64,000 bases of DNA from Cognaticolwellia sediminilitoris (GTDB lineage Bacteria > Pseudomonadota > Gammaproteobacteria > Enterobacterales > Alteromonadaceae): the NCBI GenBank assembly GCA_002104535.1, contig NBOG01000013.1, forward strand, positions 1 to 64,000, given 5' to 3'. Below, piece by piece: positions 58,445 through 64,000 of this stretch. The notes below the pieces were generated by a model. It had not been told where the DNA came from. It made no database searches and saw only the letters and a list, made by a program, of their open reading frames with translations. The translations under genes and the position numbers were made by a program. Every line of letters starts with the position of its first letter. Position 1 is the stretch's first letter.

Positions 58445-59674
58445 TTGTTAAACCGTATTTGGAGTGGATTTTTCTTTATCGCCTTTATTTCGGCAATGGT
58501 GCAATGGTTAGTCTTTGATCAAATATTGATTTTTGAAGATATTGTTAACGCCATTTTTTCTATGTCAAAGGTAACCGTAGAAATTGCGATAGGTTTAATT
58601 GGTATTCTAAGTTTTTGGCTCGGTATGATGAAAATTGCAGAGCATGCTGGCATTATTGATAAGTTAGCTGATTTTATATCGCCACTCTTTGTTCGGATTA
58701 TGCCAGAAGTTCCTAAAGGTCATCCTGCGATAAGTTCGATGACCATGAACTTATCGGCAAATTTTCTAGGGTTAGATAATGCAGCTACGCCTTTGGGGTT
58801 AAAGGCAATGCAAGATTTACAGTCGCTTAACCCAAATAAAACAACGGCGACTAATGCGCAAATTTTATTTTTAGTTTTAAATACCTCGTCGGTGACATTA
58901 TTTCCGGTGACTGTTTTTGTTTATCGTGCCCAACAAGGCGCCATCAATCCTACGGATGTTTTTGTCCCCATATTACTTGCCACCTTTGCATCAAGCCTGG
59001 CCGGTTTACTTGTTGTCGCTTTTGTCCAAAAAATAAAACTTTACCAACAAGTTGTTCTCCTCTATTTAGCTGCGGGTATTGCACTAGTCGGTAGTGTTGC
59101 GGCATATTTTTCAACGCTGAGTGCTGAACTATTAGCCCAACAGTCATCATTGTTAGGTAATTTATTAATATTTAGTACTTTGATCTGTTTTATATTTTTC
59201 GCCTTAAAACGACAAGTTAATGTTTACGACAGCTTTATTGAAGGGGCTAAACAGGGTTTTGATACCAGCATTAAAATCATTCCCTATTTGTTGGCTATGT
59301 TATGCGCCATTGGTGTATTTAGAGCCAGTGGAGCATTAGATATTTTAGTTGATGGTATCCGTCAATTGGTCTTGATTTTCAATGGTGATGCTAGGTTTGT
59401 TGATGCTTTACCGACAGCATTTATGAAACCGTTAAGTGGTTCTGGTGCGCGAGCTATGATGATTGAAACTATGAATACTCATGGTGCGGACTCTTTTGCC
59501 GGCCGCTTAGCTTCTATCGTTCAAGGTTCTACTGAAACTACTTTTTATGTACTAGCGGTCTATTTTGGCTCTGTTGGAATTCGGTATAGCCGTCATGCGC
59601 TTACCTGTGGACTTGTTGCTGATTTAGCTGGCATTACTGCAGCGATTGCAGTTTGTTATTGGTTTTTCGGCTAA
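58445..59674 (+). CDS. Nucleoside-recognition (SpmA/SpmB-like fused) membrane protein
   Basis: A 409-residue polytopic membrane protein with two Gate/nucleoside-recognition domains in tandem: SpmA-like in residues 1-190 (NLSANFLGLDNAATPLGLKA in 20 residues) and SpmB-like in residues 210-405 (PLSGSGARAMMIE and IVQGSTETTFYVLAVYFGSV). This is the fused form common in non-spore-forming Proteobacteria; transport function is suspected but unproven. The start is TTG, with AGAG upstream. It precedes the prp operon regulatory region. Confidence 0.85.
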   Translation: MLNRIWSGFFFIAFISAMVQWLVFDQILIFEDIVNAIFSMSKVTVEIAIGLIGILSFWLGMMKIAEHAGIIDKLADFISPLFVRIMPEVPKGHPAISSMTMNLSANFLGLDNAATPLGLKAMQDLQSLNPNKTTATNAQILFLVLNTSSVTLFPVTVFVYRAQQGAINPTDVFVPILLATFASSLAGLLVVAFVQKIKLYQQVVLLYLAAGIALVGSVAAYFSTLSAELLAQQSSLLGNLLIFSTLICFIFFALKRQVNVYDSFIEGAKQGFDTSIKIIPYLLAMLCAIGVFRASGALDILVDGIRQLVLIFNGDARFVDALPTAFMKPLSGSGARAMMIETMNTHGADSFAGRLASIVQGSTETTFYVLAVYFGSVGIRYSRHALTCGLVADLAGITAAIAVCYWFFG

Positions 59675-59692: not shown

Positions 59693-59704
59693 ATTGTCGA
59701 CATT
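59693..59704. promoter_or_regulatory. GTCGAC operator-like site 1
   Basis: ATTGTCGACATT matches ATTGTCGACAAT at 11 of 12 positions. It lies 19 bases after the SpmAB-like stop and 264 bases before the gntR start codon. Confidence 0.5.
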
Positions 59705-59870
59705 TTTTCTTAAACATTAAAATAAGACTAGGTTTGGAACTTTAACTATTTAACTGTTGATGATTTTAATTAAAAGTCTACAATAACAGCTAATTAGCAA
59801 TCTTGTTGTTTTTAAGGTTAGGCTTTAAGTAGTGAGTTTTAATTATTTTCACGAGTAATGAATACCTCCT

Positions 59871-59882
59871 ATTGTCGACAAT
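59871..59882. promoter_or_regulatory. GTCGAC operator site 2, perfect palindrome
   Basis: ATTGTCGACAAT is a perfect 12-bp palindrome, 15 bases upstream of the proposed -35 of the gntR-prp promoter. The GntR/FadR fold binds such short palindromes. Confidence 0.65.
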
Positions 59883-59897
59883 AGTTGTTTTTCGGCA

Positions 59898-59925
59898 TTG
59901 ACTAATCTTAATATGTCGCTATCAT
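59898..59925 (+). promoter_or_regulatory. Predicted promoter of gntR-prpB-prpC-acnD
   Basis: TTGACT, 16-base spacer, TATCAT. The start would be near 59932, giving a 25-base leader. Operators 2 and 3 lie on either side. Confidence 0.55.
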
Positions 59926-59943
59926 TACGCCATTGTTTTTGAA

Positions 59944-59955
59944 TGTGTCGACAAT
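59944..59955. promoter_or_regulatory. GTCGAC operator-like site 3, at the gntR start codon
   Basis: TGTGTCGACAAT, two mismatches to the perfect site, ending one base before the ATG at 59957. Protein bound here would block transcription or translation, consistent with autorepression. Confidence 0.55.
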
Positions 59956-59956
59956 A

Positions 59957-60637
59957 ATGGCTTTAAATAACCCAACTACACAAGCAGCTGTAACAACAGC
60001 AGATAAAGTATTTGAACAAATGTTACATGCCATTGTTGATGGCACAATCAAGTCTGGCAGCAAAATAAGTGAGCCAGAACTTGCCAAAAACTATCAAATT
60101 AGCCGCTCAACTCTGCGCGAAGCTTTAAACCGTCTAGAAAAATGTCACCTTATTGAACGTAAAGCCAATGTTGGTTCTCGCGTTGTTGAATGCTCTATTG
60201 CCGGCCTTTTAGAAATTTACGTTGTTCGTGAAGCGCTTGAAGGTATGGCTTGTCGAGAAGCGGCCAACAATATGACCGATGAAGAAATTAATGAAATGAA
60301 GGCTATGCTTGCACAACATGCAAGTGCAAAAGCACTACAAGATGGCGTTTCATATTATCAAGAAGAAGGTGATTTAGATTTTCATTATAAAGTTATTCTC
60401 GGTAGTCATAATCAACAACTGATCAATATCTTATGTGGTCAACTCTATCACCTTGTGCGGATGTATCGCTGCCAATTTGGTATGAATAGCCCTCGAGCGA
60501 CTAAAGCATTTGATGAACATTCTAGAATAATCGAAGCGATAGCCGATCGTGACGGAGAATTAGCTGAAATGCTGATGAGACGTCATATTGCGGCATCACG
60601 AAAAAACATTGAAAAGAAAATTGCTCAGCAACAATAA
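59957..60637 (+). CDS. GntR/FadR-family regulator of the methylcitrate operon
   Basis: A 226-residue regulator. The winged helix is in about residues 15-80 (PELAKNYQISRSTLREALNR, 20 residues), and the FCD ligand domain in residues 85-220 with histidines in HYKVILGSHN and RRHIAASR. The start is the ATG at 59957, since the upstream TTG at 59933 would read through operator 3. No clear ribosome site precedes it. It is the first gene of the propionate operon, the place held in Alteromonadales by the regulator sometimes called PrpQ. The likely ligand is methylcitrate or a related acid. Confidence 0.88.
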   Translation: MALNNPTTQAAVTTADKVFEQMLHAIVDGTIKSGSKISEPELAKNYQISRSTLREALNRLEKCHLIERKANVGSRVVECSIAGLLEIYVVREALEGMACREAANNMTDEEINEMKAMLAQHASAKALQDGVSYYQEEGDLDFHYKVILGSHNQQLINILCGQLYHLVRMYRCQFGMNSPRATKAFDEHSRIIEAIADRDGELAEMLMRRHIAASRKNIEKKIAQQQ

Positions 60638-60685: not shown

Positions 60686-61576
60686 ATGTCTACATTATTA
60701 TCACCTGGCGCAAAATTTCGCCAAGCCATAGAGAATAATAAACCACTTCAAGTTGTCGGCACTATCAACGCTTATTGCGCGATGATGGCGGAACAACTAG
60801 GTCATCAAGCTATTTATCTATCTGGTGGCGGTGTGGCTAATGCATCATATGGCTTACCTGATTTAGGTATGACGTCATTAAATGATGTCATCGCCGATGT
60901 TCAACGCATCACTAGTGCATCTAGTTTACCTTTGCTTGTTGATATTGATACCGGCTGGGGGGGGGCATTTAATATTGCTAAAACTATCCGTGATATGGAA
61001 AAAGCTGGAGCTGCAGCGGTACACATTGAAGATCAAGTAGCGCAAAAGCGTTGCGGTCATCGCCCAAATAAAGAAATTGTTACAACTGAAGAGATGGTTG
61101 ATCGTATTAAAGCAGCTGTAGACGCGCGTGTTGATAAAGATTTTTTTATCATGGCCCGTACCGATTCATTTGCTCAAGAAGGTTTAGAAGCCGCATTAGA
61201 ACGTGCTAAAGCTTATGTTGCCGCTGGTGCTGATGGTATTTTTGCTGAAGCGGTTAAAACAGAAGAGCACTACCGTGCATTTACTGAAGCGCTTGATGTT
61301 CCTGTGTTAGCTAATATTACCGAATTTGGCCAAACTGAATTATGGAATAAAGCACAATTAGGTGAGTGGGGATGTGCGATGGTACTTTACCCATTATCAG
61401 CATTTCGTGCGATGAATAAAGCGGCTGAATCTGTTTATAAAACTTTACTTGCAGATGGCGATCAAAAAGCAGAAATCGATAATATGCAAACCAGAATGGA
61501 TTTGTACGATTACCTTGGTTACCACGACTACGAGCAAAAACTTGATGTGTTGTTTTCTGAAGGCAAAAACAAATAG
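60686..61576 (+). CDS. prpB: 2-methylisocitrate lyase
   Basis: A 296-residue enzyme that splits 2-methylisocitrate to pyruvate and succinate. It is of the isocitrate lyase superfamily: KRCGHRPNK is the active-site loop; [19 protein letters not shown] and [11 protein letters not shown] fit PrpB. It follows gntR by 48 bases with GGAAAAGGA upstream of the start, then prpC. Cytoplasmic. Confidence 0.96.
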
Positions 61577-61657: not shown

Positions 61658-62785
61658 ATGACAGATAAAAAATTATCAGGTGCAGGTTTACGTGGTCAAA
61701 GCGCAGGTGAAACAGCTTTGTGTACGGTAGGAAAATCAGGCTCAGGTTTAACTTATCGCGGTTATGATGTCGCTGATTTAGCAGATAACGCTACTTTTGA
61801 AGAAGTAGCATACCTTCTTTTCAATGGCGAATTGCCAAATGAAAAAGAGTTAGCAACTTATAAAGCTGAATTATTTGCCATGCGTGATTTACCAGAGGCA
61901 TTAAAAGCAGTACTTAAATTAATTCCTAAAGAAACTCATCCGATGGATGTCATGCGTACGGGGTGTTCATTTTTAGGTAACTTAGAGCCAGAGAATGACT
62001 TCTCTGAGCAACAACAAGCTGCTAATCGTTTATTATCGGCGTTTCCAGCCATTATGTGTTATTGGTATAAATTCTCTCACGAAGGTGTTGAGATTGATTG
62101 TACTTCTGATGAATCGTCATTAGGTGGGCACTTCTTAAAATTATTAAATGGTAAAAGTCCGTCAGCACAACACCAAAAAGTCATGGATGTGTCATTAATT
62201 TTGTATGCAGAGCACGAATTTAATGCCTCTACATTTACTGCGCGTGTTTGTGCATCAACATTATCTGACATGTTCTCATGTGTCACGGGTGCCATTGGCA
62301 CATTACGTGGACCACTTCATGGCGGTGCTAACGAAGCGGCGATGGACATGATTGAACAGTTTGAGTCTCCTGCAGATGCTAAAGAAAAAATGGCTGGCAT
62401 GTTAGCACGTAAAGAAAAAATAATGGGTTTTGGTCATGCGGTTTATAGCACTTCAGATCCTCGTAATGTCATTATAAAAGCTTGGTCTGAAAAGCTAGCA
62501 GCAGAAAACGGCGATACCTCGCTGTATGATATTTCAGTCGCTTGTGAAGAATTTATGTGGGACACGAAAAAATTATTTTGTAATGCTGATTTCTTCCATG
62601 CGTCAACGTACAACTATATGGGCATTCCAACGAAATTATTTACGCCTATTTTCGTTTGTTCACGCTTAACTGGTTGGGCAGCACACGTGATGGAACAGCG
62701 TCAAAATAACCGCATTATTCGTCCTTCTGCAGACTACACAGGACCTGAACCACGTAAAGTTCAACCTATTGCTGAAAGAGCATAA
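61658..62785 (+). CDS. prpC: 2-methylcitrate synthase
   Basis: A 375-residue citrate synthase family enzyme that condenses propionyl-CoA with oxaloacetate. GAGLRGQSAGETALCTVG opens the protein in the PrpC manner; LHGGANEAAMDM and GFGHAVYSTSDPR carry catalytic histidines. The short length (375) is typical for PrpC compared with GltA. It lies 81 bases after prpB and precedes acnD. Confidence 0.96.
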   Translation: MTDKKLSGAGLRGQSAGETALCTVGKSGSGLTYRGYDVADLADNATFEEVAYLLFNGELPNEKELATYKAELFAMRDLPEALKAVLKLIPKETHPMDVMRTGCSFLGNLEPENDFSEQQQAANRLLSAFPAIMCYWYKFSHEGVEIDCTSDESSLGGHFLKLLNGKSPSAQHQKVMDVSLILYAEHEFNASTFTARVCASTLSDMFSCVTGAIGTLRGPLHGGANEAAMDMIEQFESPADAKEKMAGMLARKEKIMGFGHAVYSTSDPRNVIIKAWSEKLAAENGDTSLYDISVACEEFMWDTKKLFCNADFFHASTYNYMGIPTKLFTPIFVCSRLTGWAAHVMEQRQNNRIIRPSADYTGPEPRKVQPIAERA

Positions 62786-62940: not shown

Positions 62941-64000
62941 ATGAACTATGATTATCGCAAGCCACTGCCGAATGCCAATATTGACTATTTCGATACCCGA
63001 TCTGCAGTTGAAGACATAAGCCCTGGTGCTTATGCAAAATTACCTTATACATCACGTGTTTTAGCTGAACAACTTGTTCGCCGTTGTGATCCTAAAACCT
63101 TAACCGATTCATTAAAGCAAATCATTGAAGGTAAGCAAGACTTAGACTTTCCTTGGTATCCCGCGCGTGTTGTAACTCACGATATATTAGGCCAAACAGC
63201 CTTAGTCGATTTAGCGGGCCTTCGTGATGCCATTGCTGCACAAGGTGGCGATCCTGCAAAGGTTAACCCTGTAGTACCAACCCAATTGATTGTTGATCAT
63301 TCACTTGCTGTTGAAGCTCCGGGTTTTGATTCACAAGCGTTTGAAAAAAACCGTGCCATTGAAGACCGTCGTAATGCTCATCGTTTTCACTTTATTGAGT
63401 GGACTAAAACTGCCTTTAAAAATGTTGATGTTATTCCTGCCGGTAACGGCATTATGCACCAAATCAATTTAGAGAAAATGTCACCAGTTATTCAAGCACG
63501 TGACGGTGTTGCCTTTCCTGATACTTGTGTCGGTACTGATAGTCATACCCCTCATATCGATGCACTAGGTGTTATTGCCATTGGTGTTGGTGGCTTAGAA
63601 GCGGAAACGGTAATGCTAGGTCGCCCATCTATGATGCGCTTGCCAGACATTATTGGCGTTAAATTAACCGGTCAACGTAAACCGGGTATTACCGCTACTG
63701 ACATTGTATTGGCTATTACTGAATTCTTACGTAATGAAAAAGTAGTCTCTAGTTACTTAGAGTTTTTTGGTGAAGGCACGAAAAATCTTACTATTGGCGA
63801 CAGAGCAACTATTTCAAATATGACACCAGAATACGGTGCATCTGCTGCCATGTTCTACATTGATGAACAAACCATTGATTATTTGAAAATTACCGGTCGT
63901 GAACCAGAGCAAGTTAAATTAGTAGAAACTTATGCTAAGCATACCGGTTTATGGGCTGATGATTTAGTGAGTGCAGAATATAAACGTGTGCTTGAATTTG
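62941..64000 (+). CDS. acnD: Fe/S-dependent 2-methylisocitrate dehydratase AcnD (partial)
   Basis: Incomplete at the right edge; the open frame runs from the ATG at 62941 to 64000 (353 codons seen). MNYDYRKPLPNANIDYFDTR starts the protein (20 residues) and DTCVGTDSHTPHIDALGVIA and GGLEAETVMLGRPS are aconitase-type segments. AcnD dehydrates 2-methylcitrate, with PrpF, which lies beyond the window if present. Full length would be about 860 residues, so the cluster-ligating cysteines are not visible. It is in frame and undamaged. Confidence 0.95.
   Translation, partial: MNYDYRKPLPNANIDYFDTRSAVEDISPGAYAKLPYTSRVLAEQLVRRCDPKTLTDSLKQIIEGKQDLDFPWYPARVVTHDILGQTALVDLAGLRDAIAAQGGDPAKVNPVVPTQLIVDHSLAVEAPGFDSQAFEKNRAIEDRRNAHRFHFIEWTKTAFKNVDVIPAGNGIMHQINLEKMSPVIQARDGVAFPDTCVGTDSHTPHIDALGVIAIGVGGLEAETVMLGRPSMMRLPDIIGVKLTGQRKPGITATDIVLAITEFLRNEKVVSSYLEFFGEGTKNLTIGDRATISNMTPEYGASAAMFYIDEQTIDYLKITGREPEQVKLVETYAKHTGLWADDLVSAEYKRVLEF

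Follow-up and report, generated by a model that had tools for sequence, protein, structure and literature searches.

The window, meaning the whole 64 kb stretch of DNA that was analysed, ends in a set of prp genes headed by gntR (Table 1). The order gntR-prpB-prpC-acnD was established from NCBIfam matches and open reading frames; acnD is cut by the end of the window, and the whole acnD frame, followed by a prpF-like frame that is presumably prpF, was read in the genome stretch L104. The GntR protein combines a winged-helix GntR domain with an FCD domain, both above the Pfam cut-off, and matches PDB entry 7xp0 over residues 13-225 with an E value of 1.1e-71. We take this entry to be Pseudomonas PrpR (PA0797), alias PmiR. 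The most likely start of gntR is the ATG at 59957, one base past the third of the sites described below. Upstream lies a gene for a Gate-domain protein, which in relatives is the host of an in-gene operator-like site, and the intergenic space between this gene and gntR, 282 bases long, holds all three sites of the window. The nearest named relatives belong to Colwellia and Cognaticolwellia.

Table 1. Genes, predicted operators and promoter at the gntR-prp locus (window coordinates).
Feature	Position	Strand	Remarks
Upstream gene	58445..59674	+	protein with Pfam Gate matches in 2 stretches (SpmAB-like)
Place of the lost in-gene site	59345..59356	+	TTA GTT GAT GGT in the window
O1, distant auxiliary operator (predicted)	59693..59704	.	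ATTGTCGACATT, 1 mismatch; 19 bases past the stop of the Gate-domain gene
O2, perfect operator (predicted)	59871..59882	.	ATTGTCGACAAT; upstream of the -35
Sigma70-like promoter (predicted)	59898..59925	+	TTGACT-16-TATCAT; between O2 and O3
O3, operator (predicted)	59944..59955	.	TGTGTCGACAAT, 2 mismatches; just 3' of the predicted transcription start
gntR / prpR	59957..60637	+	FCD-type GntR regulator, 226 aa; Pfam GntR and FCD above cut-off
Counterpart in gntR of the relatives' +292 site	60249..60260	.	CTTGTCGAGAAG; one core base off
prpB	60686..61576	+	methylisocitrate lyase; NCBIfam NF008455 and TIGR02317 above cut-off
prpC	61658..62785	+	2-methylcitrate synthase; NCBIfam NF009006 above cut-off
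acnD	62941..64000	+	cut by window end; TIGR02333 best match of the cut protein

Three palindromes upstream of gntR

The presence, spacing and conservation of the sites, as well as the two addresses of the third one, were analysed directly. The original prediction described one perfect palindrome and two near copies beginning at 59693, 59871 and 59944, with centre spacings of 178 and 73 bases, and this description is accurate. It was also right that two of the sites flank the promoter, which is the position of O2 and O3, so that two or more operator-like sites surround one promoter at the window locus, but the separate third site that it placed at the start of gntR is O3 itself, counted twice. 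The perfect copy ATTGTCGACAAT lies upstream of the regulator gene and is identical to the motif published for PrpR (PMC9765439).

The core TGTCGACA occurs three times in the window, and all three occurrences are at this locus. Its genome-wide count is 68; the reversed control gives 38, and a first-order Markov estimate based on the window about 34. The 12-mer at up to two mismatches occurs 340 times in the genome as compared with 362 for the reversed control, which is chance level, and one site alone therefore means little. Triples within 251 bp are expected about 0.08 times genome-wide according to a Poisson estimate. The suspicion voiced with the original prediction, that the site might simply recur at random frequency, thus holds for single sites but not for the cluster, which is moreover kept across relatives.

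A genome search for the motif had been proposed to define a wider regulon, and the 14 other places examined, seven with 0 or 1 mismatch and seven more, a minority of the genome's matches, which include 65 other TGTCGACA cores, lend it no support. Thirteen of these overlap an open reading frame of at least 80 aa. The one intergenic candidate, C27:23275, has no counterpart at that place in 16 other genomes of the genus, a comparison in which L288 has the core elsewhere and L295 contributes a short stretch. Besides O2, the genome has a single perfect palindrome (L097, C20:85402), which sits within a 367-aa open reading frame.

Spacing of the inner pair

The promoter predicted between O2 and O3 is the best of three promoter-like pairs in 501 bp, where 1.8 are expected. 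Its hexamers are near-invariant in the 15 loci of the window's clade and a promoter is found at a similar position in most other loci; transcription is predicted to start near 59932. In 85 of 94 distinct gntR genes (at least 70% identity), the 200 bp upstream contain exactly two TGTCGACA cores. These two-core loci and 40 more distant ones gave 125 O2-O3 spacings, a set that leaves out the nine of the 94 loci without exactly two inner cores, together with L096 (no site), L261 (three sites) and L278-L285 (eight loci). The spacing is 61-64 bp in 18 loci, 67 bp in one and 71-74 bp in 106, with none at 65, 66 or 68-70 bp, and two classes approximately one helical turn apart thereby cover 124 of the 125 loci.

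Comparison with the promoter suggests which of the two sites moves. In most loci of both spacing classes, the best -10 begins 22-25 bp before O3, and the -35 is offset from the start of O2 by about 27 bp in wide loci and by 15-18 bp in narrow loci. This stepping of O2 is not followed by the two loci at 61 bp and the one at 67 bp. The pattern is most simply read as O3 being fixed relative to the promoter and O2 having to keep to one face of the helix.

Several further features of the sites were noted. O2 is perfect in 82 of the 85 loci with a clean pair, the left half of O3 is degenerate in 66 of the same 85, and in 41 of 43 loci the right half of O1 is, so that O1 and O3 are each weak on the side facing O2. 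Two Thalassotalea loci (L081 and L083) have, instead of the distant third site, a doubled site that precedes O2 by about 13 bp. O3 ends a few bases from the gntR start codon in the window's clade, with no Shine-Dalgarno evident by eye, and in other Colwellia its distance upstream of the aligned gntR start is greater by 40-85 bases; the choice of start codon and the translation of gntR may differ between the two groups.

Two addresses of the third site

The site beside the stop of the Gate-domain gene had been called unexplained. It can now be read as a relocated auxiliary operator on the basis of where the third site is found in relatives. In the 44 distinct loci where the Gate-domain gene lies at most 700 bp upstream, the third site is in-gene only in 28, intergenic only in 15, at both addresses in none and at neither in one (L190, the one adjacent locus without any third site). 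The 15 intergenic loci make up the window's clade, and outside this clade the third site is in-gene in 28 of 29 loci.

Within the clade, the intergenic O1 is kept in all 15 loci with the gene order of the window. Its first ten bases, ATTGTCGACA, are invariant in all of them; the interval between O1 and O2 hardly aligns. The length from O1 to O2 is 177-179 bp in 11 loci, 168-169 bp in two, 189 bp in one and 194 bp in one, which are mostly whole turns, with 194 bp a plain exception. For O1-O2 distances below 250 bp, the Rayleigh test gave p 0.013 on nine distinct, non-independent values, and the out-of-phase distance of 194 bp occurs in two loci. One clade member, L023, has its Gate-domain neighbour 2 kb away and carries no O1.

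The in-gene third site always falls on the same three codons, at positions 294-296, and 27 of the 28 genes read ATT GTC GAC there; the exception, L166, has GTT in place of the Ile codon ATT. Val is encoded by GTC and Asp by GAC in all 28, and Ile by ATT in all 27 genes with Ile, while pairwise protein identity among the 28 hosts ranges from 70 to 99%. Near-identical genes (L143, L146, L161 and L075) are left out of these codon counts. Ranked by the product of top-codon fractions, the triple of the site scores 1.0, and the next best of 98 comparable codon triples scores 0.46. Only four of 220 conserved columns are invariant at the codon level, and three of those four are the in-gene site. Because all codon columns share one tree, kinship alone is insufficient to explain the invariant codons of the site. 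The site is located about 326 bases ahead of the aligned gene end, and no helical phasing is seen in its distances to O2 (Rayleigh p 0.25 for a 10.5-bp period). At the equivalent place in the window's clade the codons have drifted (Table 1), where relatives have ATT GTC GAC followed by one more codon, AGT for example.

For 47 copies of the neighbour gene, the retrieved stretches of 1.3 to 7 kb did not show adjacency to gntR, and 44 of these lack the in-gene site; 16 of the 47 copies have at least 70% identity, and 13 of these are without the site. The site was found without shown adjacency in L032 (at 2.4 kb), L074 (at 1.6 kb) and L131 (where the contig ends). Five genes, all non-adjacent (L133, L167, L169, L170 and L182), encode I-V-D with other codons, without the 9-mer ATTGTCGAC. 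Close sisters are found on both sides: L074 keeps the site at 1.6 kb and L170 has a changed codon at 3.2 kb.

The neighbour-protein tree places the window's clade (support 100/99) inside a supported group with in-gene rows, and seven changes are needed to account for all labels. Phylogenetic pairs comparing adjacency with the third site numbered five, on average 3.3 for, 0 against and 1.7 tied (median p 0.25). Outside the clade there were four pairs, 2.3 for and 0 against (median p 0.5). With only five pairs significance is out of reach, though the pairing runs one way.

Sites inside gntR

Of the 45 loci that lack a third site in the 1 kb upstream, 13 have a site at +330 within gntR, compared with none of the 48 that do have one, a difference with a Fisher p of 2.8e-5, not corrected for kinship. 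Thirteen of the 14 genes that encode I-V-D at this place carry the site, which looks to be under selection. This distribution gives a hint that the other side, too, can provide an auxiliary site. At +292, for which the window has a counterpart (Table 1), the site is carried by 16 of 72 genes encoding ACRQA, as against about 5.5 expected from codon usage, the carriers being clustered by kinship; its link with the lack of an upstream site has a p of 0.10. Taken together, the +292 and +330 sites are linked with the lack of an upstream site at a Fisher p of 2.9e-5, but this link is not significant in phylogenetic pairs, which are again too few (five pairs, 1.8 in the expected direction and 0.1 against). 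In 22 of 93 loci both are missing, the third site in the 1 kb upstream and any site in gntR, and an auxiliary site is therefore not essential. The counts on 93 loci leave out L077, for which too little upstream sequence is available. In the more distant gntR loci L246-L277 (32 loci), further in-gene cores were seen, at +233 in seven and at +362 in six.

Relation to known systems

The core of the original prediction is right, and both the motif and autorepression are already in print. The motif probably comes from Suvorova 2012. As to the effector, 2-methylisocitrate is reportedly named in the title of Cui 2022. For Pseudomonas aeruginosa PrpR, ATTGTCGACAAT is the predicted motif, the protein is a repressor of the prp operon and in EMSA binds the region in front of prpR, and 2-methylcitrate is argued to be its effector (PMC9765439). 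Loss of prpR there leads to constitutive PrpB without a growth defect (PMC9765439). The window shares with this system the motif, the control of a prp operon and a regulator of the FCD GntR type. In contrast, the accessible part of that account mentions one palindrome, 84 bp upstream of prpR, and no pair, phasing, distant or in-gene site (PMC9765439). A GntR-family PrpR has also been predicted to control propionate use in Shewanella (PMC3223726), and a survey of GntR motifs gives a PrpR palindrome in which 2 nt separate GT from AC (PMC4494728); no multi-operator PrpR layout is mentioned in the parts of these two papers at hand.

Operators acting at a distance are known in other regulators. The lac and gal systems of Escherichia coli have main plus auxiliary operators, some in coding sequence, with helical phasing and looping. 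They differ from the present case in that their repressors are of the LacI family, not GntR, and in that an auxiliary site of the window's type changes address between genera. Looping and phasing of the lac operators are discussed in a study that also covers LldR, an FCD GntR regulator proposed to loop, for which a reporter library showed no such synergy (PMC7804116). Another parallel is Atu1419 of Agrobacterium fabrum, a tetrameric FCD regulator of the VanR group of GntR proteins, for which two palindromes 190 bp apart form loops visible by electron microscopy and a degenerate palindrome within an open reading frame is bound in EMSA (PMC7797058). An FCD GntR protein with more than one palindrome is common to both systems, as is, in relatives of the window, a palindrome within an open reading frame. 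Atu1419 differs in its palindrome (ATGTATACAT) and in serving another pathway, with no relocation mentioned in the portion of the paper available (PMC7797058), and its structure (6z74) is a weak match to the window protein (E 1e-9). Our literature searches found no description of the phased pair or of the address-changing operator; Suvorova 2012 and Cui 2022 lay outside their scope, and an earlier report of paired sites is possible.

Proposed mechanism and alternatives

Based on these comparisons, we consider it likely that the three palindromes are PrpR operators, that O2 and O3 bracket the promoter, and that O1 is an auxiliary operator relocated from the coding sequence of the neighbour gene. 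The motif, the repression and the binding in this proposal are carried over from Pseudomonas PrpR. PrpR made from the downstream gene would repress its own gene and prpB-prpC-acnD-prpF, and an intermediate of the methylcitrate cycle would release it. Some 7 turns would separate O2 from O3, both on one face of the helix, and repressor on both would shut the promoter. It is very likely that PrpR acts as a repressor at O2 and O3. The autorepression originally suggested for the GntR protein fits what is reported for Pseudomonas PrpR (PMC9765439) and the co-conservation of sites and gene, with binding by the window protein itself a prediction.

O1, about 17 turns upstream of O2, might raise the local concentration of repressor or close a larger loop. 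We infer looping, which had been raised as a possibility at the outset and is made likelier by the one-turn stepping of O2 against O3, the steady O1-O2 distance in the clade and the 190-bp loop of Atu1419 (PMC7797058). Bridging between operators would best account for the phasing together with a distant site at either address. We read O1 as an auxiliary operator that changed its address and probably acts by looping; in the window's clade, the in-gene auxiliary operator would have been lost and the intergenic O1 would substitute for it.

The most serious alternative is that O1 serves as a PrpR roadblock against read-through from the Gate-domain gene into gntR-prp, with no loop needed. A position between the two genes or within the upstream one fits this idea equally well, as does the absence of the site from 44 of the 47 neighbour-gene copies not shown to adjoin gntR. 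We nevertheless regard a roadblock as unlikely. With the in-gene site some 326 bases before the gene end, the block would truncate the neighbour's transcript; a roadblock would not be expected to hold O1 at a steady distance from O2 within the clade; and the +330 site in gntR (13/45 vs 0/48) lies downstream, where it cannot stop entry from upstream.

It is also conceivable that O2, at approximately -56 (or -46), makes PrpR an activator as well, through contact with RNA polymerase, in which case the stepping would reflect this contact and not a bridge to O3. O2 does step by about one turn relative to the promoter too, and its distance resembles that of class I activator sites. This dual role seems improbable given that in Pseudomonas the loss of prpR gives constitutive PrpB and no growth defect, so that no activation is needed there (PMC9765439).

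It is very unlikely that the distant third site arose by chance and was retained through shared descent or for the sake of the encoded protein, with only O2 and O3 at work: sites at up to two mismatches do occur at chance frequency in the genome, 22 of 93 loci manage without an auxiliary site and the phylogeny-paired tests are not significant, but on one shared tree the site still supplies three of the four single-codon columns among 220, five non-adjacent genes encode I-V-D without ATTGTCGAC, and the O1 of the clade is an island amid unalignable sequence.

For the wider group, the reading of O1 as a relocated auxiliary operator extends to a claim that we hold to be fairly likely, namely that a prp operator is maintained within the coding sequence of an unrelated neighbouring membrane-protein gene in Colwellia, Thalassotalea and allies by selection on the DNA and not solely on the protein, with an intergenic copy as its replacement in the window's clade and a comparable site at +330 of gntR in other lineages. 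With motif and regulator both known, the finding in its original form is an ordinary one. The novelty would lie in the layout and its history, namely the stepping of an operator by a whole turn and an auxiliary operator held in the codons of a neighbour and replaced when lost. If this is true, one regulatory element has changed its address between genes with its job unchanged. The loci would then provide natural variants for testing directly whether a GntR regulator loops DNA, together with a case of operator turnover in bacteria that can be read codon by codon, as well as a warning that regulatory sites can hide within genes of unrelated function.
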